Source of the DNA: Pseudomonadota bacterium
Lineage (GTDB): Bacteria > Pseudomonadota > Gammaproteobacteria > Burkholderiales > Burkholderiaceae_C
Direction of reading: 5' to 3'
Length of the DNA: 64,000 nucleotides
Assembly: GCA_963204815.1 (NCBI GenBank)
Contig: CAUJHQ010000061.1
Location: forward strand, 1 to 64,000
Part shown: in pieces, positions 4,076 to 52,577 of the stretch
How positions within the stretch are numbered: position 1 is the first letter of the stretch
Layout: each line of letters begins with the position of its first letter
Notes under the pieces: model-generated
What the model was told of the DNA's origin: nothing
What the model saw: only the letters and a program-made list of their open reading frames with translations
Database searches by the model: none
Translations under genes and position numbers: made by a program

Positions 4076-5242
4076 TCAGTAGGACTTGGGAAGGTCGAGC
4101 ACCTTCTCGGCGATGAAGCACAGGATCAGCTGCTCGGTGACCGGCGCGATGCGCGTCACCGTCACCTCGCGCAGCAGGCGCTCGACGTGGTACTCCTTCG
4201 CGTAGCCGAAGCCGCCGTGCGTCAGCACGGCCTGCATGCAGGCGTCCTGGCCGGCACGCGCACCCAGGAACTTGGCGGTGTTGGCCTCGGCGCCGCAGGG
4301 CTTGTGGTGGTCATAGAGCCAGGCGCCCTTCATGACCATGTTCCAGGCCGCTTCCAGCGCCATCCAGCGTTCGGCCAGCGGGTGCTGGATGCCCTGGTTC
4401 TGGCCGATCGGGCGGTCGAACACGATGCGCTCGCGGGCGTACTGCGTGGCGCGGCGCAGCGCGTCCTGGCCGATCGCGATGGCCTCGGCGGCCACCAGCA
4501 GGCGCTCGGGGTTCAGGCTGTGCAGGATGTAGCTGAAGCCCTTGCCTTCCTCGCCGATGCGGTCGCTGTCGGGGATGAACAGGCCGTCGATGAAGATGGC
4601 GTTGCTGTCCACCGCCTTGCGGCCCATCTTCGGGATGCGGCGCACCTCGATCTTGCTGCGGTCGAGGTCGGTGTAGAAGATCGTGATGCCGTCGGTGGGG
4701 CGCTTGCAGTCTTCGAGCTTGGTCGTGCGCGTCAGCAGCATGATCTTGCTGGCCACTTGCGCGGTGCTCGTCCACACCTTCTGGCCGTGCACGAGGTAGC
4801 CGCCCGGCACCTTCTGCGCGAAGGTCTTGATGGCGGTGGTGTTGAGGCCGGCGTCGGGCTCGGTGAAGCCGAAGGCGCACTGGTCCTGGCCTTCGACCAG
4901 GCGCGGGATCCAGCGCGCCTTCTGCTCGGGCGTGCCGAAGACGACGATGGGGTGCGGACCGAACAGGTTGATGTGCACCGTGCTCGCCGCCGCCATGCCG
5001 CCGCCGTGGCTGGCGATCTCGTGCATCATGATCGCCGCTTCGGTGACGCCGAGGCCGGCGCCGCCGTATTCCGGCGGCATCGTGATGCCGAGCCAGCCGG
5101 CGTCGGCCATCGCGCGGTGGAACTCACGCGGGAACTCGCCGTCTTCGTCGCGGGCCAGCCAGTATTCGTCGTCGAAACGTTTCACCACGGCGGCCACGCC
5201 GTCGCGGATGGCGGTGTGGTCTTCGCTGACCGAGAAGTCCAT
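4076..5242 (-). CDS. acyl-CoA dehydrogenase
   Basis: 388 aa; FGFTEPDAGLNTT, THGGFGYAKEYHVERLLREV. Confidence 0.92.
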   Translation of the reverse strand: MDFSVSEDHTAIRDGVAAVVKRFDDEYWLARDEDGEFPREFHRAMADAGWLGITMPPEYGGAGLGVTEAAIMMHEIASHGGGMAAASTVHINLFGPHPIVVFGTPEQKARWIPRLVEGQDQCAFGFTEPDAGLNTTAIKTFAQKVPGGYLVHGQKVWTSTAQVASKIMLLTRTTKLEDCKRPTDGITIFYTDLDRSKIEVRRIPKMGRKAVDSNAIFIDGLFIPDSDRIGEEGKGFSYILHSLNPERLLVAAEAIAIGQDALRRATQYARERIVFDRPIGQNQGIQHPLAERWMALEAAWNMVMKGAWLYDHHKPCGAEANTAKFLGARAGQDACMQAVLTHGGFGYAKEYHVERLLREVTVTRIAPVTEQLILCFIAEKVLDLPKSY

Positions 5243-5261: not shown

Positions 5262-6131
5262 CTAGCGCGCCGCGTCCAGCGTGCGCAGCGCCTGCGTGAG
5301 GTGGGGCTTGTCGATCATCACGCCGTCCAGGCTCAGCGTGCCGGCGTCGGGCTGGGCGGCGAAGGCTGCGACGATGCGGCGTGCGTGCTCGAGTTCGGCC
5401 GCGCTCGGCGAGTAGGCGGTGTTGATCGTCTCGACCTGGTCGGGGTGGATCGCGATGCGGCCGCGGAATCCGCGCCGGCGCGAGGCGCGGCAGGCCGCGG
5501 CCAGGCCGGCGGCGTCGCGGAAGTCGGCGTGCAGGGTGTCGATGGCGGGCACGTCGGCGGCGGCCGCGGCGGCCAGGCAGAGCGAGTTCGCCAGCTGGTA
5601 CAGCGGTGACCAGCTGCCGTCTTCGTCCTTGTTGGCGACCGCGCCGATGGCGGCCGACAGGTCTTCGGCGCCCCAGGTCACGCCGGCCAGGCGCGGCCGC
5701 GGGGCGCAGAAGCTCTGCATGTTGAGCACGGCCTGCGGTGTCTCGGTGGCGACCGGCACGATCTTCACGCTGCCGGGCGCGAGGCCGGCGCGCGCCTCGA
5801 GCGCGTCCAGGCCGTGGCCGAGCTGCACGATGCAGGCCGCGCTGCGGGTCTTCGGCTGCAGGATGCCGGCCAGCCCGGGCACGACGACGGCGGCGAGGTC
5901 GCCCATCGCCAGCGGCGTGTCCAGCGGGTTGATGCGCACGAAGAGCTTCGGGCCGATGCTCGCCGCGTGCGCGGCGATGAACTCCGCCGCCATCGTGCGC
6001 GCAACGGACTTGCGCGATTCGGCGACCGAGTCCTCCAGGTCGAGGATCAGCACGTCGGCCGCGCTGCCCACCGACTTGGCGAGCTTGCGCTCGCTGTCGG
6101 CCGGCACGAAGAGCATGGAACGCAGCTTCAT
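5262..6131 (-). CDS. HpcH/HpaI (CitE-like) CoA ester lyase
   Basis: MKLRSMLFVPADSERKLAKS, LILDLEDSV, GVTWGAEDLSAAIGA, AIHPDQV. Confidence 0.9.
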   Translation of the reverse strand: MKLRSMLFVPADSERKLAKSVGSAADVLILDLEDSVAESRKSVARTMAAEFIAAHAASIGPKLFVRINPLDTPLAMGDLAAVVVPGLAGILQPKTRSAACIVQLGHGLDALEARAGLAPGSVKIVPVATETPQAVLNMQSFCAPRPRLAGVTWGAEDLSAAIGAVANKDEDGSWSPLYQLANSLCLAAAAAADVPAIDTLHADFRDAAGLAAACRASRRRGFRGRIAIHPDQVETINTAYSPSAAELEHARRIVAAFAAQPDAGTLSLDGVMIDKPHLTQALRTLDAAR

Positions 6132-6580
6132 GAGGGCTTCCGAAGCATCAGCGCCTGCCGCGTCGTCGTGCAGACCTCTTCGTCACGCTGGTTGAAGCCC
6201 TGGTGCAGGAAGGTCACGATGCCGGCGTTGGGGCGCGACTTGCTTTCGCGGACTTCCTTCACGGTGGTGCGCGAGCGGACCGTGTCGCCGTGGAACACGG
6301 GCTTCGGGAAGCGGGTGTCGGTCATGCCGAGGTTGGCCACCGTGGTGCCCAGCGTGGTGTCCTGCACCGACAGGCCGATCACCAGGCCGAGCGTGAAGAT
6401 GCTGTTCACCAGGGGCTGGCCGAACTCGGTACCCTTGCAGTACTCGGCGTCGATGTGGATCGCGGCGGGGTTGTAGGTGGCGCTGTTGAACCAGACGTTG
6501 TCGGATTCGGTCACGGTGCGGCGGATCTCGTGGTCGAAGACCTGACCCACGGCGAACTCCTCGAACCAGCGGCCTGCCAT
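6128..6580 (-). CDS. MaoC family dehydratase
   Basis: 150 aa hotdog protein; FEEFAVGQVFDHEIRRTVTESDN, ATYNPAAIHID; 4-bp overlap with next gene. Confidence 0.88.
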   Translation of the reverse strand: MAGRWFEEFAVGQVFDHEIRRTVTESDNVWFNSATYNPAAIHIDAEYCKGTEFGQPLVNSIFTLGLVIGLSVQDTTLGTTVANLGMTDTRFPKPVFHGDTVRSRTTVKEVRESKSRPNAGIVTFLHQGFNQRDEEVCTTTRQALMLRKPS

Positions 6581-8364: not shown

Positions 8365-8841
8365 TCAGCGCACCGGCATGCCGGGCAGCTGCAGCCGGTG
8401 GTCGCTCTCGCTCTCGGGCAGCAGCGGCCCGCGCCGGAACACGCCGCTGGCGCGCGCCACCGCCTTGTCGCCGCAGGTGATGAGGCCCTGCGAGAAGACC
8501 AGGTTCTTCGTCACCTGCAGGATGTCCGCCTCGCCCTGCACCCATTCGCCGAGCGGCGCGCCGTTCATGAAGTCGAGCTGCAGGCTGATGGTGGGCAGGA
8601 ACTGGCGCGGGATGTCGGTCTGGTACTGCGCCGCGCTGGACAGCACGATGTCGGCGAACAGGCTCAGCATGCCGCCGTGGCAGTTGTTGCCCGGGTTGAC
8701 CTGGTGCGGCTCGACGCGGAAGCCGACCTGGAAGTGGCCTTCGTGCCAACGCGCGTAGAGCTGGCCGCTGTGGGTGGCGAAGGCGCTGCCAAGGCGCACG
8801 GGGACGAAGCCTTCTGGCGGTGCGAGAGGGGTGTCGGTCAT
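8365..8841 (-). CDS. PaaI family thioesterase
   Basis: VNPGNNCHGGMLSLFADIVLSSA, GDKAVARASGVFR; ATG at 8841 inside longer track ORF. Confidence 0.87.
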   Translation of the reverse strand: MTDTPLAPPEGFVPVRLGSAFATHSGQLYARWHEGHFQVGFRVEPHQVNPGNNCHGGMLSLFADIVLSSAAQYQTDIPRQFLPTISLQLDFMNGAPLGEWVQGEADILQVTKNLVFSQGLITCGDKAVARASGVFRRGPLLPESESDHRLQLPGMPVR

Positions 8842-10076
8842 AGCGAGCGGGCGATGTCGTCCCACGCCGCGGCGAGCGCGGCGCGGTGTTCGGGGGCGGC
8901 GATGGCGATCAGCGCCTGGGCGCGGGCGCCGAGCGACAGGCCGCGCAGTTCGGCCACGCCGTGTTCGGTGACCACGGCGTCGGCCAGGTGGCGCGGCAGC
9001 GTGACGAGTGCCTGGCGGTCCAGCGCCGGCACGATGCGCGACACGCTGCCGCCCTTGGCGGTGGCCGGCAGGCAGATCAGCAGCCGGCCGCCGGGCGAGG
9101 CGAGCGCGCCCTGCGCAAAGGCGGGCAGGCCGCCGGCGCCGGCCTGCAGCGTGCCGCCGGCGCGTTCGGCGTTGACCTGGCCGAAGAGGTCGACCTCGAC
9201 GGCGCCGTTCACGGCCACGAAGCGCGGCATCGCGCCCAGGCGCGCCGGGTCGTGCGTCTGCGTCACGTCGGTCAGGAAGAGGGTGGGCAGCTGCGCCGCG
9301 AAGTCGCGCAGCGCCGCGTCGCCCAGCACCACGCCGGTGGTGACGGGGGCGTCGCGGTCCAGCGCGCCGGCGTCCCACAGCGTGCGCACCGCCGACGGCA
9401 GCATGCCGCCGTGGAAGCGCAGCCGGCGGTGGTTCGACAGCGCCGCCGCCAGCGACAGCGGCACGCCGCCGATGCCGAACTGCAGCGTGTCGCCGTCGCG
9501 CACCAGCGTGGCGACGTGGGCGCCGATGCGCGCCTCGACCGCGCCCACCTTGGGGTCGGTGAAGTCGTTGAGCGGCGCGTCGGCCTCGACCGCGAGGCCG
9601 ATCTCCGAGCGGTGCACGCGGAAGCTGCTGTTCAGCCGCGGCAGGCGCGGGTTGAAGTGCGCCACGCGCAGTGCGGCGCGCTGCCACACCAGCGGCACGA
9701 AGTCGCAGGCCAGGCCGGGCGCGCACCAGCCGTCGGCGTCTGGTGGCGTGAGCTGGGCGATGGCGACGTCGAACGGCGGCGCGTCGCGCAGCTGGCGTGC
9801 GATGCCCAGGTAGTCCAGCGCCGGCAGCTCGGCGCGCCCTTCGGCGAGGCCGCGGCGCAGCGATGGCGACATGAACCAGCCGAGCTGGCGCGCTTGCGGG
9901 TGCAGCGCCAGGTAGTCGATGCGGTCGATGCCGGGGAACTGCACGCCGGCGAAGGTGACGCCGCGCGCGCGCTCGGGGTCGGCGCGCAACTCGTCGGCGA
10001 GCAGGGCCGATTCGTTGCTGAGCGTGGGCACCCAGACGCGCTGTCCGGGGCCGAGCGCGTCGACGAGGCGCTTCAT
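8838..10076 (-). CDS. acetyl-CoA hydrolase/transferase family protein
   Basis: 412 aa; GDTLQFGIGGVPLSLAAAL, VTEHGVAELRGLSLGARAQALIAIAAPEHR. Confidence 0.9.
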   Translation of the reverse strand: MKRLVDALGPGQRVWVPTLSNESALLADELRADPERARGVTFAGVQFPGIDRIDYLALHPQARQLGWFMSPSLRRGLAEGRAELPALDYLGIARQLRDAPPFDVAIAQLTPPDADGWCAPGLACDFVPLVWQRAALRVAHFNPRLPRLNSSFRVHRSEIGLAVEADAPLNDFTDPKVGAVEARIGAHVATLVRDGDTLQFGIGGVPLSLAAALSNHRRLRFHGGMLPSAVRTLWDAGALDRDAPVTTGVVLGDAALRDFAAQLPTLFLTDVTQTHDPARLGAMPRFVAVNGAVEVDLFGQVNAERAGGTLQAGAGGLPAFAQGALASPGGRLLICLPATAKGGSVSRIVPALDRQALVTLPRHLADAVVTEHGVAELRGLSLGARAQALIAIAAPEHRAALAAAWDDIARSL

Positions 10077-10450
10077 GCGCCGACCCGCGCCGTGCCGGTC
10101 AGGACCTCGCTGCCGGCGGCGGTGCGGCCGCGCAGCATGTACTGCGCAGCGTCGCCTTCCACGCGCTCGAGCGTGGCCGTCAGCTCGATCACCTCGTCGA
10201 CGAGCGCCACCCCGGCGAAGCGCGTCTGCAGCGAACGCACGCTGCCGGCGCCGAAGTGCTGCGTGAGCAGGCGCCCGGCCAGCGCCATCGTCAGCATGCC
10301 GTGCACCACCGGCCGCTCGAAGCCGGCCTGGCGCGCGAACGCCGGGTCCAGGTGCAGCGGGTTGTGGTCACCCGAAGCGGCGGCGTACAGCGCCAGCTGC
10401 ACCGGCGTGACCGGCTCGCTGCGCAGGGTGAGCGTCTCGGGGAAGCTCAC
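10073..10450 (-). CDS. MaoC-like hotdog dehydratase
   Basis: VSFPETLTLRSEPVTPVQLALYAAASGDHNPLHLDPAFA...VVHGMLTMALAGR; GTG start. Confidence 0.84.
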   Translation of the reverse strand: MSFPETLTLRSEPVTPVQLALYAAASGDHNPLHLDPAFARQAGFERPVVHGMLTMALAGRLLTQHFGAGSVRSLQTRFAGVALVDEVIELTATLERVEGDAAQYMLRGRTAAGSEVLTGTARVGA

Positions 10451-10512
10451 TGGACGATCCTCCGCACGATGTGCTCCGGGACGAGCGCTTGGGAGCGGCC
10501 CGGCGCGCTCAT
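10447..10512 (-). other. 21-codon micro-ORF tiled between two hydratase genes
   Basis: MSAPGRSQALVPEHIVRRIVQ*; ATGA overlap with upstream stop and GTGA overlap with downstream start; coding status unproven. Confidence 0.3.
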
Positions 10513-10937
10513 GCCACCGCCGCCACGGCGTTGCGCGACAGCACGGTCTGCGTCGCCGTGGCCACGCGCCGGCCACCGACGGCGTAGTGCGTCTCGATGA
10601 CGATGAAGGTCAGCGCACCGTCCTTCTTGTCGTAGATCTGCGCCACCGAACGCGTGATCTCGACCTCGTCGCCGATGCGCACCGGCGCCGCGTGGTCCAG
10701 GCGCTGTTCGGCATGCAGCACGCCGCGCAGCGGCACGTTCAACAGCTTCATCAGCGCGGCACTGCTGTAGTGCTCGCCTTCCAAGGCCTTCAGGAAGGTG
10801 GGCGGCAGCGGCGAACCCGGCGCCCAGGCGGCCGGGTCGGTCTCGCCGATGGCCTGGCAGAACAGCTTCACGCGCCACGCATCGACGGCCACCGTGGTCG
10901 GCGGCGTCGTGAAGCCGATGCGGCTGCGGTCGATCAT
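10509..10937 (-). CDS. FAS1-like/MaoC N-terminal hotdog dehydratase domain protein
   Basis: MIDRSRIGFTTPPTTVAVDAWRVKLFCQAIGETDPAAW...PPTFLKALEGE. Confidence 0.85.
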   Translation of the reverse strand: MIDRSRIGFTTPPTTVAVDAWRVKLFCQAIGETDPAAWAPGSPLPPTFLKALEGEHYSSAALMKLLNVPLRGVLHAEQRLDHAAPVRIGDEVEITRSVAQIYDKKDGALTFIVIETHYAVGGRRVATATQTVLSRNAVAAVA

Positions 10938-12376
10938 GCCGGCTGGTCGGCCGACCAGGTCCGCGGGCCGCCGCTCCACGCCGGCGACACGCCGGCCAGG
11001 CAGGCCGCGACGTCGCCGAACGCGGGGTCGCCGTCGGTCCAGGCCGATGCGGTGCGCGCCTGCTCGGTCAGCGTCTTGCCGCGCAGCGCCGCGAGGCGGC
11101 TGCCCGGGCCGGGCGTGCGCCAGGGCAGCGACCACAGCTTGCCGACGAGTGCGCCGAGCGCCGCCGCGGCGCCGTCGTCGGCGCCGACGATCTCGATCAC
11201 GCGGCCGTACGGCCCCAGCGGGGCCAGCACCAGCTGGGCGCCGGCGGCCGGGTCGGCCGCTTCGTCCAGCACGCGCAGGGCGGCCGTGTGCGTGGCGCCG
11301 CCGCGGTCGGTGACGACCACGGTGTCGGCGGGCAGCGTGGCGTCGGCCTGCTGCGGCAGCTTGAGCTTGGCCAGCGCCGCCGTCCAGGCCTGGCGCGTGG
11401 CGCTGACCGGGCCCACGCGCAGGCTCTCGACGCCGGCGCCGGCCGGCGGCGCAAGCTCGCGTTCAGCGCGCAGGCGCTCGAGGAACAGCGTGCGCACCAT
11501 GCGGCCCGCGACCGGGCTGAACATCAGGCGCAGGAAGTTGTTCATCTCGGTCGCCGTCGCCTCGGCGAGGGGCTGGCGCGCGCCCTGCAGCACGCTGTCG
11601 ACGATGGCGCTGTAGGCGGGGTAGAGGTCGAAGTCTTCCGCGCCCACGCCATGCCGGGCGGCGATGGCGCGCGCGGTGGCGTCGCTGTGCGCGGGCACGT
11701 CGGCCTGCTCGAGGTTCTTGAACTTCAGTGCGGCGTCGAACGGCGTGCCGTGCAGCGCACGCGCCACCGCCTTCGCTTCGTCCACCAGCTTGGCCAGAGG
11801 GACGACGGACGAGACGATGCCGAGTTTGAGTGCCGTGCCGGGGTCGACCGAGCGACCCGTGAGCAGCAGGTCCATCGCCGGCTCGAAGCCGGCCAGCCGC
11901 GGCAGCCGCTGCGTGCCGCCGGCGCCCGGCAGCAGGCCCCAGCGCACCTCGGGCAGGCCGAGCTGCAGGCGCGGGTCGTCGGCCACCAGCCGCATGCGGC
12001 AGGCGAGCGACAGTTCCAGCCCGCCGCCGAGCGCGAGCCCGTTGACGGCGGCGACAAAGGGCTTGGCCGAGGCCTCCATGCGCACGAACTGGCGGCCCAG
12101 GCGGCCGCACATGTCGAACATCTGCGCGTGCGTGGCGCTGCGCGCGCTGTCGCAGTAGCCGCGCACCATCACGAGGTCGGCGCCAGCCAGGAAGCTGGAC
12201 TTGCCCGAGGTGATGACGCAGCTCTTCACCGCGGGGTCGCGGTCGACCTGGTCCATCAGCGCGTCGAGCGCGTCCATCAGCTCGACCGAGAACACGTTCA
12301 TCGTGCGGTCGGCCATGTCGATGGTGGCCAGCAGGACGCCGTCGGCGTCCAGTGAGGTCGTGATGGGCGCGCTCAT
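10934..12376 (-). CDS. enoyl-CoA hydratase (FadB/FadJ N-terminal-like) with atypical C-terminal extension
   Basis: crotonase motifs KSSFLAGADL, NGLALGGGLELSLACRMRLV, LPEVRWGLLPGAGGTQRLPRL; about 180-aa C-terminus without recognisable NAD-binding motif. Confidence 0.85.
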   Translation of the reverse strand: MSAPITTSLDADGVLLATIDMADRTMNVFSVELMDALDALMDQVDRDPAVKSCVITSGKSSFLAGADLVMVRGYCDSARSATHAQMFDMCGRLGRQFVRMEASAKPFVAAVNGLALGGGLELSLACRMRLVADDPRLQLGLPEVRWGLLPGAGGTQRLPRLAGFEPAMDLLLTGRSVDPGTALKLGIVSSVVPLAKLVDEAKAVARALHGTPFDAALKFKNLEQADVPAHSDATARAIAARHGVGAEDFDLYPAYSAIVDSVLQGARQPLAEATATEMNNFLRLMFSPVAGRMVRTLFLERLRAERELAPPAGAGVESLRVGPVSATRQAWTAALAKLKLPQQADATLPADTVVVTDRGGATHTAALRVLDEAADPAAGAQLVLAPLGPYGRVIEIVGADDGAAAALGALVGKLWSLPWRTPGPGSRLAALRGKTLTEQARTASAWTDGDPAFGDVAACLAGVSPAWSGGPRTWSADQPA

Positions 12377-12381
12377 CGGCT

Positions 12382-13182
12382 TCAGCTCACGAACTTCTTG
12401 AAGTCCGGCTTGCGGCGTTCGTTGAAGGCGCGCACGCCTTCCTTGGACTCCTCGGTCTGGTAGTAGTGCTTGACCGTCTGGATGCCCTGGAAGCTGATGC
12501 CGCGGATGTGCTCGGTGTCGGCGGCGAACGAGCGCTTGACGATGGTGAGCGCCGTCGGGCTCATCTCGTTGATCTCGGCGCACCACTTGTCGACCTCGGC
12601 GTCGAGCTGGTCGTGCGGCACGACCTTGTTCACGAGGCCCATCGCGGCGGCCTCGGTGGCGCTGTAGCGGCGGCACAGGAACCAGATCTCGCGTGCCTTC
12701 TTCTCGCCGACGATGCGGGCCAGGTAGGCCGTGCCCCAGCCCGGGTCGGCCGAGCCGACCTTCGGGCCGACCTGGCCGAAGCTGGCCTTCTCCGACGCGA
12801 TCGTCAGGTCGCAGATGGTGGCGAACACGTTCCCGCCGCCGATCGCGAAGCCCTGCACCTTGGCGATGCTCACCTTGCGCAGGTCGCGCAGCGCGGTCTG
12901 CATTTCCTCGATCGGCATGCCGACCGTGCCGCGCGGGCCGTAGAGGCCGTCTTCGCTCAGATGAACCTTCTGGTCGCCGCCGGTGCAGAAGGCCTTGTCG
13001 CCGGCGCCGGACAGCACCATCACGTTGGCGCTCTTCTCTTCGTCGGCGCGGCGCAGCGCGTCGATCAGCTCTTCCAGCGTCTGGTTGCGGAAGGCGTTGT
13101 AGACCTCCGGGCGGTTGATCGTGATGCGCACGACGCCGTTGCTGACGTCGTACAGGATGTCCTTGTAGTCCTTGGCCATGAT
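12382..13182 (-). CDS. badI: 2-ketocyclohexanecarboxyl-CoA hydrolase (BadI)-like crotonase
   Basis: KAFCTGGDQKVHLSEDGLYGPRGTVGMPIEEMQTALRDLRK, VQGFAIGGGNVFATICDLTIASEKASFGQVGPKVGSADPGWGTAYLARIVGEKKAREIW; matches remembered BadI signature. Confidence 0.8.
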   Translation of the reverse strand: MMAKDYKDILYDVSNGVVRITINRPEVYNAFRNQTLEELIDALRRADEEKSANVMVLSGAGDKAFCTGGDQKVHLSEDGLYGPRGTVGMPIEEMQTALRDLRKVSIAKVQGFAIGGGNVFATICDLTIASEKASFGQVGPKVGSADPGWGTAYLARIVGEKKAREIWFLCRRYSATEAAAMGLVNKVVPHDQLDAEVDKWCAEINEMSPTALTIVKRSFAADTEHIRGISFQGIQTVKHYYQTEESKEGVRAFNERRKPDFKKFVS

Positions 13183-13196
13183 CGAGTCTCTTTCGT

Positions 13197-13946
13197 TCAA
13201 CCGTGCATCGTGAGACCGCCCGAGACGCTGATCGTCTGGCCGGTCATGAAGGCGGCGTCGTCACTCGCGAGGAAGGCGACGAGGCCGGGGTAGTCGTCGG
13301 GCACGCCGATGCGGCCCAGCGGCACGCCACGCACCATGGCGTCGCGGATCTTCTGGCCCTGCTCGCCGGTGCCGACGAAGGCGTCCATCGCCGGCGTGTC
13401 GGTCGGGCCTGGGCAGATGGTGTTGATGGTGACGTTGTTGCGTGCCACTTCGCGCGCCAGGGCCTTCGCGAAGGCGATCGTCGCCCCCTTGCAGCCGCTG
13501 TAGACGACCTCGCCCGAGCTGCCCACGCGGCCGGCGTCGGACGCGATGTTGACGATGCGGCCGCCCTTGCGCGCGTTCATGCCCTGCGCCACGGCGTGCG
13601 TCATGTGCAGCGGGCCGAACCAGTTGATGGCGGTGACCTTCTGCCAGAAGTCCGGCGTCGTCTTCAGGAACGGCATCGGCGTGTCCCAGCCGGCGTTGTT
13701 GACGAGGATGTCGGTGCCCTGGCCGGCCTGCTGCTCGAAGCTGGCGACGGCGGCGGTGACGGCTTCGTACTTCGTGATGTCGCAGCTCACGGCCAGCGCC
13801 TTGCCGCCCGCCTTCTCGATGGCGGCCACGGTCTCGGCGGCGCCGGCGGGGTTGATGTCGAACACCCCCACGGTGCAGCCTTCGGCTGCGAGCCGGGTGG
13901 CGATGGCGCGGCCGATGCCGCTGCCGGCGCCGGTGACGATGGCGGT
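13197..13946 (-). CDS. badH: 2-hydroxycyclohexanecarboxyl-CoA dehydrogenase (BadH)-like SDR
   Basis: DILVNNAGWDTPMPFLKT, NIASDAGRVGSSGEVVYSGCKGATIAFAKALARE, ICPGPTDTPAM, TGQTISVSGGLTMHG; next to badI-like gene. Confidence 0.78.
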   Translation of the reverse strand, partial: TAIVTGAGSGIGRAIATRLAAEGCTVGVFDINPAGAAETVAAIEKAGGKALAVSCDITKYEAVTAAVASFEQQAGQGTDILVNNAGWDTPMPFLKTTPDFWQKVTAINWFGPLHMTHAVAQGMNARKGGRIVNIASDAGRVGSSGEVVYSGCKGATIAFAKALAREVARNNVTINTICPGPTDTPAMDAFVGTGEQGQKIRDAMVRGVPLGRIGVPDDYPGLVAFLASDDAAFMTGQTISVSGGLTMHG

Positions 13947-14044
13947 CTTGCCGCTGAGTCCTCGCATGTCGAAGTTCTCCTGTGCAGGGTCGGGGAGGGT
14001 TCCGGGAAGCGGCCGGCCCACGCGGGCCGGTCGATGCTGTGCCA

Positions 14045-14067
14045 CATGATACGCTAGCGAACGATAA
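14045..14067. promoter_or_regulatory. operator-like element CATGATACGCTAGCGAACGATAA
   Basis: 23 bp identical to 18636-18658; intergenic between divergent operons. Confidence 0.65.
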
Positions 14068-14246: not shown

Positions 14247-15818
14247 ATGAGCCAGAACCCGATCCACCCCGCCGTGGCCCAGTGGCTGCAGCGCCCCTTC
14301 GGCACGCTGGACGAGATGGTCCGCGTCCAGGCGCAGGTGCAGCCCGGGCACCCGGCGCTGGTGCTCGACGGCCGCACGCTGAGCTACGCGGACTTCGACC
14401 GCCAGATCGACCGCGTGGCCGCCGCGCTGCAACGCGACGGGCTGCGGCCGCGCGAGGTGATCGCCATCGCCGCCGGCATGTCGCTGGCCTACGCCGCCGT
14501 GTTTTTCGGCGCCCTGCGCGCCGGCCTGGCCGTGGCTCCGCTGGCGCCCGACCAGCGGCCCCAGACGCTGCAGGCCATGGTGGCCGATGCCGGTGCGCGG
14601 CGGCTCTTCATCGACGCTGCGGTCGCGCAGCACCTGGCCGGCGTGGCCGGTGCGTCCGACGTGCCGCGCGTGGCGCTGGACGACGCCGCCCCGGGCGCCG
14701 CGCTGTCGTCGTGGCAGGCGGCCGACGGCGCACGCCCGGCGCCGGTGGCGGTGCAGCCCGACTGGCCCTGCACGCTGATCTATTCGTCGGGCACGACCGG
14801 CCTGCCCAAGGGCATCACGGCGCCGCATTCGTACCGCTGGTCGGCGCTGCAGATGTTCCAGACGCTCGGCTACTCGCCGCAGTCGGTGGTGATGATCTCG
14901 ATCCCGCTGTACTCCAACATGACGCTGTCGAGCTTCCTGCCGTCGTTGGCGATGGGCTGCACGCTGGTGCTGATGTCGAAGTTCGACGCCGGTCGCTGGC
15001 TCGAGCTGGCCGAGCAGCACCGCGCCACCCATTGCATGCTGGTGCCGGTGCAGTACCAGCGGCTGTTGGCGCACCCCGACTTCGACCGCCGCGACCTCGG
15101 CGCCTTCCGCATGAAGTCCTGCGGCAGCGCGCCCTTCGCGGCGTCGATCAAGGCCGACGCGCTGCGGCGCTGGCCGGGCGAGCTGGTCGAGTTCTACGGC
15201 ATGACCGAAGGCGGCGCCGTCTGCGCGCTCGACACGCGCCGCCACCCCGACAAGCTGCACACCGTGGGCCGGCCGTTGCCGGGGCACGAGTTCCGCCTGA
15301 TCGACGACGACGGGCGCGAGTTGCCGCCCGGTGCGGTGGGCGAGCTGGTGGGCCGCTCGGGCGTGATGATGACCGGCTATCACAACCTGCCCGAGAAGAC
15401 GCGCGAGGCCGAGTGGTTCGACGCCGAGGGCCGGCGCTACATCCGCACCGGCGACGTCGGCCGCATCGACGACGACGGCTTCGTCGTGCTGATGGACCGC
15501 AAGAAGGACATGCTGATCTCCGGCGGCTTCAACGTCTACCCGAGCGATCTCGAGGCGGTGCTGTTGCAGCACCCGGCGGTGGCCGAGGCGGCGGTGGTGG
15601 GCGTGCCGTCCGAACGCTGGGGCGAATCGCCGGTGGCCTGCGTGGTGCCGCGCGCCGGCGCCACGGCCGCCGAGGCCGAGCTGATGGCGTGGGTGAACGA
15701 GCGCGTCGCCAAGCCGCAACGGCTGGCCGGTCTGCGCTTCGCCGCGGCGCTGCCGCGCAGCGAGATCGGCAAGGTCCTCAAGCGCGAGCTGCGCGAGCGC
15801 TGGCTGGCGGAGGCGTGA
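14247..15818 (+). CDS. AMP-dependent acyl-CoA ligase
   Basis: 523 aa; LIYSSGTTGLPKGI, FYGMTEGGAVC, C-terminal SEIGKVLKRELRE. Confidence 0.92.
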   Translation: MSQNPIHPAVAQWLQRPFGTLDEMVRVQAQVQPGHPALVLDGRTLSYADFDRQIDRVAAALQRDGLRPREVIAIAAGMSLAYAAVFFGALRAGLAVAPLAPDQRPQTLQAMVADAGARRLFIDAAVAQHLAGVAGASDVPRVALDDAAPGAALSSWQAADGARPAPVAVQPDWPCTLIYSSGTTGLPKGITAPHSYRWSALQMFQTLGYSPQSVVMISIPLYSNMTLSSFLPSLAMGCTLVLMSKFDAGRWLELAEQHRATHCMLVPVQYQRLLAHPDFDRRDLGAFRMKSCGSAPFAASIKADALRRWPGELVEFYGMTEGGAVCALDTRRHPDKLHTVGRPLPGHEFRLIDDDGRELPPGAVGELVGRSGVMMTGYHNLPEKTREAEWFDAEGRRYIRTGDVGRIDDDGFVVLMDRKKDMLISGGFNVYPSDLEAVLLQHPAVAEAAVVGVPSERWGESPVACVVPRAGATAAEAELMAWVNERVAKPQRLAGLRFAAALPRSEIGKVLKRELRERWLAEA

Positions 15819-15874: not shown

Positions 15875-17080
15875 TCAGGCGCCGTGGCGCCCGACGATGG
15901 CCACCGCGCACACGTTCTGGTGCGGGTGGCCGCCCAGGTTGTGCGTGAGGCCGAGGTCGAAGTCCTTCAGCTGCCGTTCGCCGGCGCGGCGCTGCAGCTG
16001 CAGCCAGATCTCGTAGACCATGCGCAGGCCCGACGCGCCGATGGGGTGGCCGAAGCACTTCAGGCCGCCATCGGGCTGCACCGGCAGCGCGCCGCCGCGG
16101 TCGAAGGTGCCGTCGAGCACGTCGTACAGCGCGCGGCCGGGCGCGCTGAAGCCCAGGTCTTCCATCAGCACGGTCTCGGTGACGGAGAAGCAGTCGTGCA
16201 CCTCGGCCATGCCGATCTGGCGCCGCGGGTCGGTGATGCCGGCGGCCTTGTAGGCGCGCGCCGAGGCTTCGCGGGCGGTCTGGATGCTGGCGCCGTCCCA
16301 GGCCTGGAAGCCGGCTTCCTCGCCGTTGCTGACCGAGAGTTCCAGCGCCTTGAGGGTGACGAGTTCGCGCCCCGGCTGCAGCGCGCGCGCGATCTCCGGC
16401 GTCGTGAGGATGGCGCAGGCCGCGCCGTCGCTCACGCCGCAGCAGTCGAACAGGCCCAGCGGCGCGGCGATCGTCGCCGCCTTCAGCACGTCTTCCTCGG
16501 TGATCTTGTTGCGCAGGTGCGCCTTCGGGTTCAGCGCCGCGTTGTCGTGGCTCTTCACCGACACGTGCGCCATCGCGCGCTTCAGGTCCTTCATGTCGAC
16601 GCCGTGTTTGGCGGCGTAGGCCGAGGCCAGCTGCGCGAAGGCGCCGGGCGCCGTGCTGTTGGGCAGCCAGAGGTCGTTGGCGACGCCGCGCGTGCGCACG
16701 GGCAGGCCGCCGTAGCCGGTGTCCTTCAGCTTCTCGACACCCAGCGCGAGCACGATGTCGTAGGCGCCGGAGGCGACCGCGTAGGCGGCGCCGCGCAGCG
16801 CCTCGGTGCCGGTGGCGCAGGCGTTTTCCACCCGCGTGGCAGCGATGCGCGGCAGCCGCAGCGCCGCGGCCAGCGGGCCGGCGGTCTTGCCGACGTTGTT
16901 CTCCTCGAGGCAGACGCCGAGCCAGGCGGCCTCGATCTGGCCGAGCTCGATGCCGGCGTCGGCCTTCGCCTCGTTGAAGGCCTCGACCATCAACTCGTCG
17001 GCGCCGGCGTCCCAGCGTTCGCCGAAGCGCGAGCAGCCCATGCCGAGGATGGCGACCTTGTCGCGAATGCCGGTGGCCAT
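15875..17080 (-). CDS. SCP2-type thiolase / acetyl-CoA acetyltransferase family
   Basis: TRVENACATGTEALRGAAYAV, AEVHDCFSVTE, KCFGHPIGASGLRMVYEI. Confidence 0.92.
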   Translation of the reverse strand: MATGIRDKVAILGMGCSRFGERWDAGADELMVEAFNEAKADAGIELGQIEAAWLGVCLEENNVGKTAGPLAAALRLPRIAATRVENACATGTEALRGAAYAVASGAYDIVLALGVEKLKDTGYGGLPVRTRGVANDLWLPNSTAPGAFAQLASAYAAKHGVDMKDLKRAMAHVSVKSHDNAALNPKAHLRNKITEEDVLKAATIAAPLGLFDCCGVSDGAACAILTTPEIARALQPGRELVTLKALELSVSNGEEAGFQAWDGASIQTAREASARAYKAAGITDPRRQIGMAEVHDCFSVTETVLMEDLGFSAPGRALYDVLDGTFDRGGALPVQPDGGLKCFGHPIGASGLRMVYEIWLQLQRRAGERQLKDFDLGLTHNLGGHPHQNVCAVAIVGRHGA

Positions 17081-17082
17081 CG

Positions 17083-18582
17083 TCAGCTCCGCTGGGCCGC
17101 CCCGAGGGGCTGAAGCGCCCCCTCGGGGGGCAGCGAACGGACGTGAGCTTGGGGGCTAATTTCCTGTCCTCTCACGGGGGTTGCCTTCCAGAAGTAGCGG
17201 CGGAAGCCGCGTTGGCGGTCGAAGTCCTTGATGCGGTAGACCATGCGCAGCGGCAGGCCGACCGCGAGTTCGCCGTTGTCGGCATCGGCGAACTCCATCA
17301 GCACGCGCGCGCCGTCGTCGAAGTCGACATGGCCGAACTGGAACGGCGGGTGCGGCGTGTAGGCCAGGAAGTCGGTGGTGTGCGACATGACCTTGGCGCG
17401 TGCATCGGCCAGGCTCACCGGGGCCTGCGTCTTCTGCGCCCGGCAGTCGGGGTTGACGCAGACGCCGGTGCGCGGGAACTGCACGGTGCCGCAGGCGCTG
17501 CAGCGGCCGCCTTCGAAGCGCGCGGCGCGCGCGTGGTCGCGCCAGGCGGCGGTGAGCGCGGTCTTGTTGTCCATCTCGGCGCGCATGCCCCATTCGAGGT
17601 CGATCTGGCCGCTGAAGGACAGGTACTTCATGTAGCTCGTCTCGGCCTTGCCTTCGGCCGGCACGCCGCCGGGGCAGGGCACTTCGGTGCGGCGCAGCAG
17701 CAGCGCGTCGCAGCCGCTGCCGAAGGCGGCGACGAGGATCAGCGCGCCCGGCGCCGCGCTGCGCAGCGCGATGTCGAGCATGGCCAGCGGCTGCGCGCTG
17801 CCGAGGTCGCCCACCGTCTCGTGTTCGGTCGACACCAGCGCCGTGGCGGGCACGCCGAGCTTCTTCGCGACCGCCTCGTTCACCTTCGCCAGCGGCGCCG
17901 GCATCACGAAGTGCGCCACGTCGGCGGCGGCGACGCCGGCCTCGGCGAGGCAGGCCTTCAGCGTGCCCAGCGCCACCTTCATGTAGCCCTCGTCGCGCAC
18001 CCAGCGTTCTTCCCAGCCGTAGTCGTGGTCGTGGCCGGCCTCGCGGAAGTGGTCGACGAGGTCGGCGTGCACGCCGCGGTGGGCGACGAACTGCGCGATC
18101 ACCGCGCCCGTGCCGACCCACGCGCCGGCGGCGCCGTCGCCCTGGATCATTTCCTGCGCGCTCGCCGGGCGCGGCGTGCGGCGCTCGGCGGCGAGCACCA
18201 GCGCGGCGGCGGGCTGGCGCAGCGCGGCGGCCAGTTCGGCCAGCGCGGCGCGCGAGGTCGACGCGACGTCGCGCAGCGCGGCGCCTTCGTCGAGGCCGAG
18301 CGCGGCGGCGACGATGCCGGCGTTCAGCCGGTCGGCGAAGGGCAGCGTGGTCGAGGCCAGCGTCAGCTGCGACACCGCGCCGGGGGCGAGCTGGCGCGCC
18401 GCCTCGACGGCCATCGTGACGACATCCTCGTCCCAATGGGCCATGGCGCGGCGGCCCTTGGCCAGGCCGCGCAGGCCGGGCGCCATCCAGCGGTGCAGCG
18501 CGAAGACCTCGCTGCGCTCCAGGCGCAGGCGCGGCACGTAGCGTGTGGTGGCGAGCAGGCCGTGTTCGGCGGTGGTGTTCAT
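17083..18582 (-). CDS. HMG-CoA synthase-like protein fused to C-terminal Zn-ribbon/OB-fold (DUF35) domain
   Basis: 499 aa; N-terminal condensing-enzyme region plus GGRCSACGTVQFPRTGVCVNPDC zinc ribbon and OB-like C-terminus. Confidence 0.82.
   Translation of the reverse strand: MNTTAEHGLLATTRYVPRLRLERSEVFALHRWMAPGLRGLAKGRRAMAHWDEDVVTMAVEAARQLAPGAVSQLTLASTTLPFADRLNAGIVAAALGLDEGAALRDVASTSRAALAELAAALRQPAAALVLAAERRTPRPASAQEMIQGDGAAGAWVGTGAVIAQFVAHRGVHADLVDHFREAGHDHDYGWEERWVRDEGYMKVALGTLKACLAEAGVAAADVAHFVMPAPLAKVNEAVAKKLGVPATALVSTEHETVGDLGSAQPLAMLDIALRSAAPGALILVAAFGSGCDALLLRRTEVPCPGGVPAEGKAETSYMKYLSFSGQIDLEWGMRAEMDNKTALTAAWRDHARAARFEGGRCSACGTVQFPRTGVCVNPDCRAQKTQAPVSLADARAKVMSHTTDFLAYTPHPPFQFGHVDFDDGARVLMEFADADNGELAVGLPLRMVYRIKDFDRQRGFRRYFWKATPVRGQEISPQAHVRSLPPEGALQPLGAAQRS
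17100..17128. repeat. stem-loop repeat CCCCGAGGGG-N9-CCCCTCGGGG at gene 3' end
   Basis: perfect 10-bp stem; encodes the SLPPEGALQPLG tail. Confidence 0.7.
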
Positions 18583-18635: not shown

Positions 18636-18658
18636 CATGATACGCTAGCGAACGATAA
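18636..18658. promoter_or_regulatory. operator-like element CATGATACGCTAGCGAACGATAA
   Basis: identical to 14045-14067. Confidence 0.65.
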
Positions 18659-18742: not shown

Positions 18743-19657
18743 ATGAACAGGTTGCTGGAAGGCAAGGTGGCGCTGGTCACCGGGGGCGGGCGCGGCGTCG
18801 GGCGCGGCATCGCGCTGGCGCTGGCGGAGGCGGGCGCCAAGGTCGTCGTCAACGACCTCGGCGCCACGCTGGACGGGCAGGCGAGCGGCGAGCAGCCGGC
18901 GCACGAAGTGGCGGCCGCGATCGCGGCGCTCGGCGGCGAGGCGCTGGTCGACGGCGGCTCGGTCGCCGACTGGAACGCTGCGCACCGCATGGTCGAAGCC
19001 GCGGTCGAACGCTTCGGCCGCATCGACATCGTCGTCAACAACGCGGGCATCCTGCGCGACGTGATGTTCCACCGCATGAGCGAAGCCGAGTGGGACGCCG
19101 TGATCGCGGTGCACCTGAAGGGCACGTTCAACGTCAGCCGCGCCGCGGCACCGCACTTCAAGGCGCAGGGGGGTGGTGCGTTCGTGCACATGACGTCCAC
19201 CTCGGGCCTGATCGGCAACCTGGGCCAGGCCAACTACGCGGCGGCCAAGCTCGGCATCGTCGCGTTGTCGAAGTCGATCGCGATGGACATGGCGAAGTTC
19301 GGCGTGCGCTCGAACGCGGTCGCGCCGTTCGCCTGGACGCGCATGATCGACTCCATCCCGGCCGAGACGCCCGAGCAGAAGAAGCGGGTCGACGGCCTGA
19401 AGAAGCTGGTGCCGGAGAAGGTGGCGCCCTTCGTCGTCGCGCTGTGCGCCGACGCGGCGAAGGACGTGACCGGCCAGGTCTTCGGCGTGCGCAACAACGA
19501 GATCTACCTGTTCAGCCAGCCGCGGCCGGTGCGCACGGCGCACCGGGGCGAAGGCTGGACCCCCGAGTCCGTTCTGGAGACCGCCCTGCCGACCTTGCGC
19601 GCCGACTTCCACGCGCTCGACCGCTCGGCCGACGTCTTCACCTGGGACCCCGTCTGA
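18743..19657 (+). CDS. SDR family 3-hydroxyacyl-CoA dehydrogenase-like (MFE-2 type)
   Basis: LVTGGGRGVGRGIALALAEAGAKVVVNDLGATLDG, NNAGILRD, NYAAAKLGIVALSK; ATG 18743 with GGAGAG upstream. Confidence 0.88.
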   Translation: MNRLLEGKVALVTGGGRGVGRGIALALAEAGAKVVVNDLGATLDGQASGEQPAHEVAAAIAALGGEALVDGGSVADWNAAHRMVEAAVERFGRIDIVVNNAGILRDVMFHRMSEAEWDAVIAVHLKGTFNVSRAAAPHFKAQGGGAFVHMTSTSGLIGNLGQANYAAAKLGIVALSKSIAMDMAKFGVRSNAVAPFAWTRMIDSIPAETPEQKKRVDGLKKLVPEKVAPFVVALCADAAKDVTGQVFGVRNNEIYLFSQPRPVRTAHRGEGWTPESVLETALPTLRADFHALDRSADVFTWDPV

Positions 19658-19689: not shown

Positions 19690-20622
19690 ATGTCCGCACA
19701 GAAGAAGGTCATCATCACCTGCGCCGTCACCGGCGCGATCCACACGCCGTCGATGTCGCCGTACCTGCCGGTCACGGCGCAGGAGATCGCCGACGCCGCG
19801 GTCGGTGCCGTCGAGGCCGGCGCCGCCATCATCCACCTGCACGCACGCGACCCCGTCACCGGCAAGCCCGACCAGCGCCCCGAGGCCTTCGTGCCCTTCC
19901 TGAAGGACATCAAGGCGCGCTCGGACGCGGTGATCAACCTCACCACCGGCGGCTCGCCCTACATGACGGTGCAGGAACGCATGCTGCCGGCCAAGGTGCT
20001 GAAGCCCGAGGTGGCGTCGATGAACATGGGCACGATGAACTTCGGCCTGTTCCCGATGCTGCAGCGCTACAAGGAGTTCAAGCACGACTGGGAACGCCCG
20101 TACCTGGAAGGCAGCAAGGACCTGATCTTCCGCAACACCTACGGCGACCTCGAGACGGTGCTGACCGAACTGTCGGCGAACCAGACGCGCTACGAGTTCG
20201 AGTGCTACGACACCTCGCACCTGTACAACCTGGCCCACTTCGTCGACCGCGGCCTCGTGAAGGCGCCGTTCTTCGTGCAGACGGTGTTCGGCATCCTCGG
20301 CGGCATCGGCAGCCACCCGGACGACGTGATGCACATGAAGCGCACCGCCGACCGCCTGTTCGGCAAGGACTACCGCTGGTCGGTGCTGGGCGCCGGCCGG
20401 GCGCAGATGCCGATCGCGGCGATGTCGGCCTCGATGGGCGGCAACGTGCGCGTGGGCCTGGAAGACAGCCTGTGGATCGGCGCCGGCCAGCTGGCCAAGA
20501 CGAACGCCGAGCAGGTGCGCAAGGCGCGCGAGATCATCGAAGGCCTGGGCCTGCAGGTGGCGACGCCGGCCGAGGCGCGCGAGATCCTGGCGCTGAAGGG
20601 CAAGGACGCGGTCGCCTTCTGA
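19690..20622 (+). CDS. BKACE family (DUF849) beta-keto acid cleavage enzyme
   Basis: KVIITCAVTGAIHTPSMSPYLPVTAQEIADAAVGAVEAGAAIIHLHARDP, NLTTGG, GGNVRVGLEDSLW. Confidence 0.93.
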   Translation: MSAQKKVIITCAVTGAIHTPSMSPYLPVTAQEIADAAVGAVEAGAAIIHLHARDPVTGKPDQRPEAFVPFLKDIKARSDAVINLTTGGSPYMTVQERMLPAKVLKPEVASMNMGTMNFGLFPMLQRYKEFKHDWERPYLEGSKDLIFRNTYGDLETVLTELSANQTRYEFECYDTSHLYNLAHFVDRGLVKAPFFVQTVFGILGGIGSHPDDVMHMKRTADRLFGKDYRWSVLGAGRAQMPIAAMSASMGGNVRVGLEDSLWIGAGQLAKTNAEQVRKAREIIEGLGLQVATPAEAREILALKGKDAVAF

Positions 20623-20750: not shown

Positions 20751-21215
20751 ATGCCGACGGATCCGCACAGCATCGATTGGGAGCTTCGGCTCGGTTTCCT
20801 CATCCACGACGTCTCGCGCCTGCGGCGCAGCGCCTTCGACCGCTGCCTGAAGCCGCTGAACGTGACGCGCTCGCAGTGGTGGGTGCTGGCCTACCTGTCG
20901 CGCGAGGACGGCATGACGCAGAGCCAGCTCGCCGAGGAACTCGACCTCGGCAAGGTGGCGGTGGGCGGCCTCATCGACCGGCTGGAGAAATCAGGCCTCG
21001 TGCGCCGCGAGGCCGACGCCACCGACCGCCGCGTCAACCGCGTCTTCCTCGAGCCCAAGAGCAAGCAGCTCATCGCCAAGATGCGCAAGGTGAGCCACCG
21101 CATGAACGCGCAGATCCTCGAAGGCCTGGTCGACGAACGCCTCGAGAGCACCGCGCTCACGCTCGACCAGATGAAGCGCAACCTGCTCACCTACCTGCAG
21201 GGCAGCGAGATCTGA
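20751..21215 (+). CDS. MarR family transcriptional regulator
   Basis: VTRSQWWVLAYLSREDGMTQSQLAEELDLGKVAVGGLIDRLEKSGLVRREADATDRRVNRV. Confidence 0.93.
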   Translation: MPTDPHSIDWELRLGFLIHDVSRLRRSAFDRCLKPLNVTRSQWWVLAYLSREDGMTQSQLAEELDLGKVAVGGLIDRLEKSGLVRREADATDRRVNRVFLEPKSKQLIAKMRKVSHRMNAQILEGLVDERLESTALTLDQMKRNLLTYLQGSEI

Positions 21216-21337: not shown

Positions 21338-22966
21338 ATGACCGCCGGTCGTTTCGATCCCGCCGCCCACGCCCGCGCCATGCGCGAAAGCGGCTTCTGG
21401 CTTGACAGCTCGTACGACGAATTCCTCGTCCGGGCCATCGCCGACACCCCCGACAAGCCGGCCCTGGTGGCCTACCGCGCCGACCGTGAGGGCGCGCGCC
21501 GCTTCAGCTGGCGCGAGTTCGGCGACCTCGTCGCGCGCTGCGCGGCCTCGCTGCGCGCACTCGGCGTGGGCGCGGGCGACATCGTCGGCGTGCAGCTGCC
21601 CAACTGGTGGGAGTTCGTCGTCGTCTCGCTCGCGTGCAACCGCATCGGCGCCGTCGTCAACCCGCTGATGCCGATCTTCCGCGAGCGCGAGATGGGTTAC
21701 ATGCTGGGCTTCGCCGAGGCCAAGGTGCTGGTCGTGCCCAGGTCGTTCCGCGGCTTCGACCACGCGGCAATGGGCCAGGCCTTGAAGCGCGACTGCCCGA
21801 AGCTGCAGCACGTGATCGTCGTCGACGGCGAGGGCGACGACAACTTCGACCGCCTGCTGCTGTCGGGCACGGCGCGCGTCGAACCCACGCCCAAGCGCCC
21901 GCTGCTCGCGCCCGACGCGATGGCGGTCGTGATGTTCACCTCCGGCACCACCGGCTCGCCGAAGGGCGTGATGCACTCGACGAACACGCTGATGGCCTGC
22001 AACCGGTCGCTCGCCGGGCGCTTTGGTCTCGCCACCGACGACGTGATGCTCGCCTGCTCGCCGCTCGGCCACATGACCGGCTACGCGGCGGTGATGCTGC
22101 TGGGCATCAGCCTCGGCTCCACCGTGGTGCTGCAGGACGTGTGGGAAGCGCGGCGCGGCGTGCAGATCATGGCGGACGAAGGCGTCAGCTACACCGCGGC
22201 GTCCACGCCCTTCCTGTCCGACATCTGCGAGGCGGTGGCCTCCGGCTCGCCGCGGCCGGCCAAGCTGCGCAACTTCCTGTGCGGCGGCGCGCCGATCCCG
22301 CCGGTGCTGATCGACCGCGCGGCGCGCGAGCTCGGCCTCACGGTGTGCTCGCTGTTCGGCATGACCGAGTCGCTGTCGAGCACGCTCACCGAGCCGGCGC
22401 GTGCGCACGAGAAATCGTCGACGACCGACGGCCGCGCGCTCGAAGGCGTGGGCGTCAAGGTCGTCGGCCACGACGGCAAGCCGCTGCCGGCCGGCCAGAC
22501 CGGCCGCCTGCTGGTGCGCGGCGCGCAGATGCTGATGGGCTACTACAAGCGCCCGGACATCGAGACCTTCGACGCCGAGGGCTGGTTCGACACCGGCGAC
22601 CTCGCCTACATGGACGACGAGGGCTACATCCGCATCAACGGCCGCACGAAGGACGTGCTGATCCGCGGCGGCGAGAACGTGCCGGTGGTCGAGATCGAGG
22701 CGCTGCTCTACAAGCACCCGTCGGTCGCCGCGGCGGCGCTCGTCGGCTACCCCGATGCGCGGCTGGGCGAACGCGGCTGCGCCTTCGTCGTGCTGCGCCC
22801 GGGCGCCAGCTTCACGCTCGACGACCTGCAGGCCTACATGGCCGAGTGCAAGGTCGCCAAGCAGTACTGGCCCGAGCGCGTGGAGGTCGTGGCCGACCTG
22901 CCGCGCACGCCCAGCGGCAAGATCCAGAAGTTCAAGCTGCGCGAAGTGGTGGCGAAGGCCGGATGA
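21338..22966 (+). CDS. cyclohexanecarboxylate-CoA ligase-like (AliA-like) AMP-forming ligase
   Basis: VQLPNWWEFVVVSLACNRIGAVVNPLMPIFREREMGYMLGFAEAKVLVVPRSFRGFDH; FTSGTTGSPKGVMHS. Confidence 0.85.
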   Translation: MTAGRFDPAAHARAMRESGFWLDSSYDEFLVRAIADTPDKPALVAYRADREGARRFSWREFGDLVARCAASLRALGVGAGDIVGVQLPNWWEFVVVSLACNRIGAVVNPLMPIFREREMGYMLGFAEAKVLVVPRSFRGFDHAAMGQALKRDCPKLQHVIVVDGEGDDNFDRLLLSGTARVEPTPKRPLLAPDAMAVVMFTSGTTGSPKGVMHSTNTLMACNRSLAGRFGLATDDVMLACSPLGHMTGYAAVMLLGISLGSTVVLQDVWEARRGVQIMADEGVSYTAASTPFLSDICEAVASGSPRPAKLRNFLCGGAPIPPVLIDRAARELGLTVCSLFGMTESLSSTLTEPARAHEKSSTTDGRALEGVGVKVVGHDGKPLPAGQTGRLLVRGAQMLMGYYKRPDIETFDAEGWFDTGDLAYMDDEGYIRINGRTKDVLIRGGENVPVVEIEALLYKHPSVAAAALVGYPDARLGERGCAFVVLRPGASFTLDDLQAYMAECKVAKQYWPERVEVVADLPRTPSGKIQKFKLREVVAKAG

Positions 22967-29990: not shown

Positions 29991-29998
29991 GGGACGGC

Positions 29999-30877: not shown

Positions 30878-30887
30878 GGCGCGGTCG

Positions 30888-42341: not shown

Positions 42342-42345
42342 GCAA

Positions 42346-42365
42346 ACCGTACGCTAGCGTAAGGT
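42346..42365. promoter_or_regulatory. operator-like palindrome ACCGTACGCTAGCGTAAGGT
   Basis: 12-bp perfect core TACGCTAGCGTA with flanking ACC/GGT. Confidence 0.65.
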
Positions 42366-42409
42366 ATCATCGACCGCAGGCGGGGCTTCGCCCGCTGGAG
42401 CATTCGACG

Positions 42410-47916: not shown

Positions 47917-47942
47917 GCCTGCCGCGCCCGCCCGCGAAACCC

Positions 47943-47965
47943 GGGGCGGCGCGCACCGCCGCCCC
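47943..47965. other. stem-loop between tandem substrate-binding protein genes
   Basis: GGGGCGGC-N7-GCCGCCCC perfect 8-bp stem. Confidence 0.55.
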
Positions 47966-47981
47966 TGCACCCGGAGACCTC

Positions 47982-49181: not shown

Positions 49182-49206
49182 CCCGCAACGCCAAGGAAAC
49201 CGCAGC

Positions 49207-52542: not shown

Positions 52543-52552
52543 TGCAATTGCA
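52543..52552. promoter_or_regulatory. perfect palindrome TGCAATTGCA upstream of Rieske gene
   Basis: 10-bp palindrome, locally AT-rich, 25 bp upstream of ATG. Confidence 0.35.
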
Positions 52553-52577
52553 CAACCCCCAGCCGGAGACCACCGCC

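Follow-up and report, generated by a model that had tools for sequence, protein, structure and literature searches.

The monoterpene ring-cleavage cluster mrcABCDEFGH was described in Castellaniella defragrans 65Phen, where MrcF, MrcD, and MrcE are proposed to convert perillyl-CoA to isopropenylpimelyl-CoA; MrcD, MrcE, and MrcF were detected in cells grown on alpha-phellandrene, and insertion mutants in mrcF and mrcC do not grow on limonene (PMC4109377). The related bad-ali pathway operates aerobically in Aromatoleum sp. CIB, in which a badHI mutant lost growth on cyclohexanecarboxylate (CHC), so that CHC use there relies on the bad-ali copy; for a badKHI cluster without aliAB in two Aromatoleum strains, a role in monoterpene degradation has already been suggested (PMC9795900). 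In the lrc operon, a protein of the HMG-CoA synthase (HMGS) superfamily is proposed to cleave branched carbon (PMC12583861). HMGS catalysis requires a Cys and a Glu, and PhlA has neither (PMC6392133), while thiolase-fold proteins with DUF35 partners are able to act as retro-aldolases (PMC12329534).

The window analyzed here, that is, the whole stretch of 64,000 nucleotides, belongs to a contig of 70,156 bases in a 4.58-Mb draft genome. A preliminary description had reported adjacent BadI-like and BadH-like genes, and all the peptides it quoted were found in the open reading frames. The two genes, 17 bp apart, head a tight seven-gene minus-strand operon (8365 to 13967) within a catabolic island (Table 1) whose operons have in common a repeated DNA sequence, a candidate control site. 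The scatter over about 30 kb that had been described thus holds for the AliA/AliB-like genes, which are located elsewhere, but not for BadH-BadI.

Table 1. Features of the island, by position in the window
Feature	Position	Strand	Remarks
MrcC-type dienoyl-CoA reductase-like SDR	1957-2859	-	61% to T. terpenica, mrc order; Pfam adh_short_C2
MrcB-type acyl-CoA dehydrogenase	2870-4063	-	80% to T. terpenica, mrc order
Acyl-CoA dehydrogenase, CDM25258-type	4076-5242	-	Pfam ACAD; 87% to T. terpenica
HpcH/CitE-type lyase	5262-6116	-	PF03328; ~60% to T. terpenica
MaoC/(R)-specific or mesaconyl-type hydratase	6128-6580	-	PF01575, PF19315; order as CDM25256-25258
Hotdog thioesterase	8365-8799	-	PF03061/TIGR00369
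Acetyl-CoA hydrolase/transferase-type CoA-transferase	8838-10076	-	PF13336; 49% to T. terpenica homologue
MrcH-type MaoC dehydratase	10073-10450	-	PF01575; place and order as in T. terpenica
MrcG-type MaoC/FAS1_DH dehydratase	10509-10937	-	PF13452; place and order as in T. terpenica
MrcF-type (perillyl-CoA hydratase-like) protein, FadJ-type crotonase with eroded dehydrogenase half	10934-12376	-	Profile, model, Foldseek
MrcE/BadI-type hydrolase, predicted 2-oxo-(4-alkyl)cyclohexane-1-carboxyl-CoA ring opening	12382-13179	-	TIGR03210, tree, residues
MrcD/BadH-type SDR, predicted 2-hydroxy-(4-alkyl)cyclohexane-1-carboxyl-CoA dehydrogenase	13197-13967	-	TIGR03206, tree
Operator-like site TACGCTAGCGAACGATA	14050-14066	.	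Between mrc operon and divergent ligase
Acyl-CoA ligase, divergent from mrcDEFGH operon	14247-15818	+	NF004837, 384.6 bits, below cut-off
SCP2-type thiolase, Cys88/His295/Cys297/His345 intact	15875-17080	-	NF004810, 646.6 > 403
PhlA-PhlB-like fusion: HMG-CoA-synthase-like domain + zf-ChsH2/OB (DUF35)	17083-18582	-	PDB matches
Identical site TACGCTAGCGAACGATA	18641-18657	.	Between HMGS-like/thiolase operon and divergent SDR
SDR divergent from HMGS-like gene	18743-19657	+	Conserved in long clade-A loci
BKACE beta-keto acid cleavage enzyme	19690-20622	+	NF053538, 561.7 > 430
MarR-family regulator	20751-21215	+	PF12802
AliA-like CoA ligase 1	21338-22966	+	Tree: own clade with clade-A ligases (100), within AliA-like
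AliA-like CoA ligase 2	32386-33975	+	Tree: clade of ligase 1
Palindromic variant ACCGTACGCTAGCGTAAGGT	42345-42366	.	Upstream of AliB-like gene
AliB-like acyl-CoA dehydrogenase	42410-43564	+	71% to mrc-adjacent ACAD of Azoarcus sp. Aa7; AliB-like clade
SDR	43587-44459	+	69% homologues near mrc in Thauera, Denitromonas, Azoarcus

The BadI-like protein (265 amino acids from its ATG, N terminus MAKDYKDILYD) has TIGR03210 (badI) as its best NCBIfam model, with 415.8 bits (E 5.7e-125) against an equivalog cut-off of 467.6. The two best MenB models reach 311 to 330 bits, about 86 bits or more below badI, and the menB cut-off is missed as well (310.9 versus 342.7 bits). In a tree of 64 BadI and MenB rows, the MenB-like rows split from the BadI rows at 100/100; the window protein lies in a 23-row group, clade A (100/100, stem 0.5), which includes the known terpene degrader Thauera terpenica 58Eu (L057) and falls inside the BadI superclade, apart from the BadI of bad-ali clusters (100/100). 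The crotonase therefore groups with BadI and not with MenB (grouping with MenB was what the preliminary description had set as a refutation), and hydrolytic opening of an alicyclic ring, proposed there, describes the chemistry correctly. There is next to no chance that the protein is a naphthoate synthase (MenB) or some other crotonase: its nearest solved structures are indeed MenB, with no BadI chain among the matches listed, but the lead of the badI model, the separate MenB-like clade, and the catabolic gene context all speak against it. Residues S143, D145, and Y240, which we take to be catalytic by analogy with MenB, are unchanged across BadI and MenB in the alignment. Clade-A proteins have a common 3-residue insertion near residue 75 and differ from bad-ali BadI in having N52, V103, and F167 in place of G, P, and Y.

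The BadH-like protein (256 amino acids, ATG at 13967, N terminus MRGLSGKTAIV) gave a parallel result. Its best curated model is BadH (TIGR03206, 329.3 bits), as the description of this SDR as "matching BadH" implied, but the equivalog cut-off of 431.2 is missed, and in the BadH tree the protein falls into the same clade as in the BadI tree (100/99), together with mrc-context loci and T. terpenica 58Eu and outside bad-ali BadH. Naming such genes BadH and BadI by best hit is a common annotation trap, corrected here.

Gene order leads to the mrc cluster. The window order BadH-BadI-hydratase-MaoC-MaoC (13967 to 10073, minus strand) equals mrcD-E-F-G-H, and T. terpenica has the same order; C. defragrans was compared by its published gene order and table, and the sequence identities given here are to T. 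terpenica 58Eu. On one T. terpenica contig, homologues of window genes g4-g3-g15-g14-g13-g12-g11 stand in mrcB-H order, and some 25 kb from these mrc homologues lie genes for the CoA-transferase, the thiolase, and the HMGS-like protein; homologues of the MaoC-CitE-ACAD trio are on another contig (75, 59 to 60, and 87% identical). Identity is 73 to 80% for the MrcB/D/E-like proteins and only 42 to 44% for the MrcF/G/H-like ones, so the substrate may differ. The pathway is thus known in kind, as mrc-type ring opening. The preliminary description missed the mrc cluster, yet it did name perillic acid as a test substrate.

The hydratase adjoining BadI is MrcF-like and not BadK, a role for which several crotonases had been put forward. 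The FadJ profile matches this 480-amino-acid protein only at residues 6 to 300, and the FadB C-terminal match is weak. Its AlphaFold2 model (pLDDT 92.7) retrieved beta-oxidation alpha subunits with Foldseek (E 7e-25, 535 to 598 alignment columns). As judged from profiles and model, the protein is apparently a multifunctional enzyme of the FadJ type with a decayed dehydrogenase half, which is a new observation; in the Nevskiaceae homologues the Rossmann part is wholly deleted. The MrcF marker occurs in at least 2 of 399 genomes of the order, the window's own among them (a lower bound, as at most four candidates were scored per genome).

A scan of genome contigs separated clade A (L035 to L064, 75 to 97% identical) from clade B (L065 to L114, 66 to 71%). 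Among the 25 long clade-A loci, the 480-amino-acid MrcF-like homologue and the SDR divergent from the HMGS-like gene are each present in 23, and each MaoC gene and the CoA-transferase in 20; the 32 long loci of clade B have none or almost none of these genes, carrying AliB-like (28 loci) and AliA-like (22 loci) genes instead. A separate BadI scoring above the TIGR03210 cut-off is encoded in 9 of 30 clade-A genomes. Eight such second loci were extracted; an AliB-like gene stands beside BadH-BadI in seven of them and an AliA-like gene in five, and two (L146 and L147) reproduce the published gene order of Aromatoleum sp. CIB.

These data bear on the plain route from CHC to pimelyl-CoA that had been read from the window, with genuine BadH and BadI acting alongside the AliA/AliB-like genes. 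Trees confirmed the two AliA-like ligases and the AliB-like dehydrogenase as real paralogues, although they stand 7 to 30 kb away and are not adjacent to BadH-BadI. Their presence, the best curated models, the aerobic operation of bad-ali in Aromatoleum sp. CIB (PMC9795900), and the finding of no second BadI in this genome (82.8% complete) at E 1e-90 would all suit the plain route. Nevertheless, we judge it improbable; against it stand the two missed equivalog cut-offs, the separate clades of BadI and BadH, operon partners of the MrcF/G/H type instead of AliB or BadK, and the second, above-cut-off BadI in 9 of the 30 clade-A genomes.

Clade-A carriers include Nevskiaceae and Burkholderiales. 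The cluster was also seen, with 85% BadI identity, in a metagenome-assembled genome (MAG) labelled Labilithrix luteola (Myxococcota; L046), which may reflect either horizontal transfer or misbinning. The BadI-like proteins of Aromatoleum toluolicum and of a MAG of Aquabacterium (L059, L063, L168) group with the Rhodocyclales/Nevskiaceae branch and their BadH proteins with Burkholderiales, and a single contig of A. toluolicum carries two CoA-transferase-thiolase-HMGS-like sets, a picture that looks like recombination.

With up to two mismatches allowed, TACGCTAGCGAACGATA matches the whole genome only at 14050, 18641, and 42345 to 42366, the last being the palindromic variant ACCGTACGCTAGCGTAAGGT. 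The eight best matrix matches in the window, three of them the seeds, are all intergenic in a sequence that is 93% coding. Weaker related sites lie near 6638, 14201, 21274, 32257, 46670, 57419, and 62728; sites of this kind thus stand in the promoter regions of many island operons, including upstream of the AliA/AliB-like genes. Most Burkholderiales relatives have the site as well, at their orthologous SDR/HMGS-like promoter. We infer from this distribution that a putative palindromic operator, not described before, co-regulates several island operons. Common to the mrc, thiolase, and AliB-like promoters, the site links the AliB-like dehydrogenase with the cluster and opens a candidate regulon to testing. 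CAATnnATTG, the operator of BadR, does not occur exactly in the window; a single copy with one mismatch is present, where chance alone would give 4.7. A TetR protein was considered as the regulator and rejected, as none of the 13 TetR genes of the genome is on this contig.

For the HMGS-like/DUF35 fusion, the best PDB match is PhlA, followed by archaeal HMGCS and DUF35. The HMGCS catalytic Cys and Glu are replaced by S110 and T78, and these positions are noncatalytic in all 28 homologues compared. The adjacent thiolase, which among PDB chains comes closest to that of the archaeal HMGCS complex, keeps its four active-site residues in 30 of 30 homologues. Given these losses, the proposal of HMGS-type branched-carbon cleavage needs checking for this type of protein, and such cleavage in limonene-type pathways calls for re-examination. 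The retro-aldolase activity of thiolase-fold/DUF35 proteins leaves that option for the fusion. As no more than a suggestion, a beta-keto acid might be released and cleaved by the thioesterase, the CoA-transferase, and BKACE, which would be suited to these steps. In the eight clade-A loci with a BKACE gene, the protein is 81 to 99% identical (median 94%), a conservation above that of most neighbours.

Several further genes lie in the window. An Rv3169-family protein is encoded at 56265 to 57374; a distant family member stands beside the T. terpenica HMGS-like gene, and the C. defragrans gene at that position is CDM25297, an insertion mutant of which does not grow on monoterpenes. Within the island, at 52548 to 53888, is a Rieske oxygenase whose C-terminal domain is LigXa-like. 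Branched-chain-type ABC transporter sets occupy 46816 to 52495 and 27460 to 31958 (the latter as read from ORF start sequences only), with another substrate-binding protein at 59929 to 61113. A search for P450 genes found a few, elsewhere, and was uninformative. The closest window ligase shares only 38% identity with the T. terpenica ligase of the GeoC region and was rejected as a GeoC orthologue.

Reading substrates and reactions in the host from gene content and analogy, we consider that the cluster probably carries out mrc-type hydration, oxidation, and hydrolytic opening (MrcFDE) of a 4-substituted cyclohexenecarboxyl-CoA of the perillic acid type. An alkyl- or alkenyl-substituted ring acid would be converted to its CoA thioester by an AliA-like or the neighbouring ligase and, where the ring is saturated, given a double bond by the AliB-like dehydrogenase. 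The MrcF-like protein would hydrate the cyclohexene-1-carboxyl-CoA and the BadH/MrcD-like protein oxidize the 2-hydroxyl, after which the BadI/MrcE-like protein would add water to the 2-ketone and cut the C1-C2 bond, giving a substituted pimelyl-CoA. From there, a modified beta-oxidation past the branch point could draw on the MaoC and MrcB/MrcC-like proteins, further dehydrogenases, the thiolase complex, and the CoA-transferase. BKACE might dispose of a beta-keto acid formed at the end, and the palindromic operator may coordinate several of these operons. Substituted alicyclic acids, as the preliminary description had supposed, are accordingly named here as the likeliest substrates.

The same chemistry might act on another alicyclic acid, such as saturated p-menthane acids, fragments of resin acids or sesquiterpenoids, or naphthenic acids. 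This is possible but doubtful. The AliA/AliB-like paralogues, with an AliB-like gene adjoining the shared operator, would fit it, as would the divergence of the MrcF/G/H-like proteins, the Nevskiaceae and Burkholderiales carriers, and the upstream terpene genes, of which none was seen among the gene assignments of the window. Against it are the still high identities of the MrcB/D/E-like proteins to T. terpenica and the homologues, in this island, of many genes that serve the lower pathway in the published one. It is tempting, though no better than tentative, to envisage an operator-coordinated Burkholderiales branch of mrc in which saturated, ring-substituted cyclohexane acids enter via AliA/AliB and the block at the tertiary carbon is passed by the thiolase with the catalytically dead HMGS-DUF35 fusion (or by the CitE-type lyase) and then BKACE, and not by a working HMG-CoA synthase. 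The ring-opening pathway described from terpene-degrading denitrifiers is present also in Comamonadaceae-type bacteria and other lineages.

Compared with known systems, the island shares with the bad-ali clusters of Rhodopseudomonas palustris and Aromatoleum sp. CIB (PMC9795900) the BadH, BadI, AliA, and AliB families and the overall chemistry, but differs in its separate BadI/BadH clades, scores below the curated cut-offs, and operon partners. Like the lrc operon of Syntrophobacteraceae LiM6 (PMC12583861), it combines a BadI-type hydrolase with an HMGS-superfamily protein, thiolases, and a CoA-transferase, whereas LiM6 is an anaerobe with glycyl-radical limonene activation; the loss of Cys and Glu described above was established for the window protein and its homologues. 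The thiolase, HMGS-like, and DUF35 components recall PhlACB and the archaeal thiolase/HMGCS/DUF35 complex (PMC6392133), and the HMGS-like domain lacks both residues as PhlA does; unlike in those systems, the HMGS-like and DUF35 parts are fused and the context is catabolic. Differences from published mrc clusters are the placement of the mrcB- and mrcC-like genes in a separate operon, the added AliA/AliB-like paralogues and BKACE, the diverged MrcF/G/H-like proteins, and the ctm, geo, and ldi genes, which were not seen among the gene assignments of the window. Closest of all in arrangement are the C. defragrans and T. terpenica mrc loci, with the mrcD-E-F-G-H order and MrcB- and MrcC-like genes near; the BadI and BadH clades are those of the T. 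terpenica locus, and the C. defragrans island has homologues here of CDM25256-25258 and of its HMGS-like, thiolase, CoA-transferase, and ETF genes.
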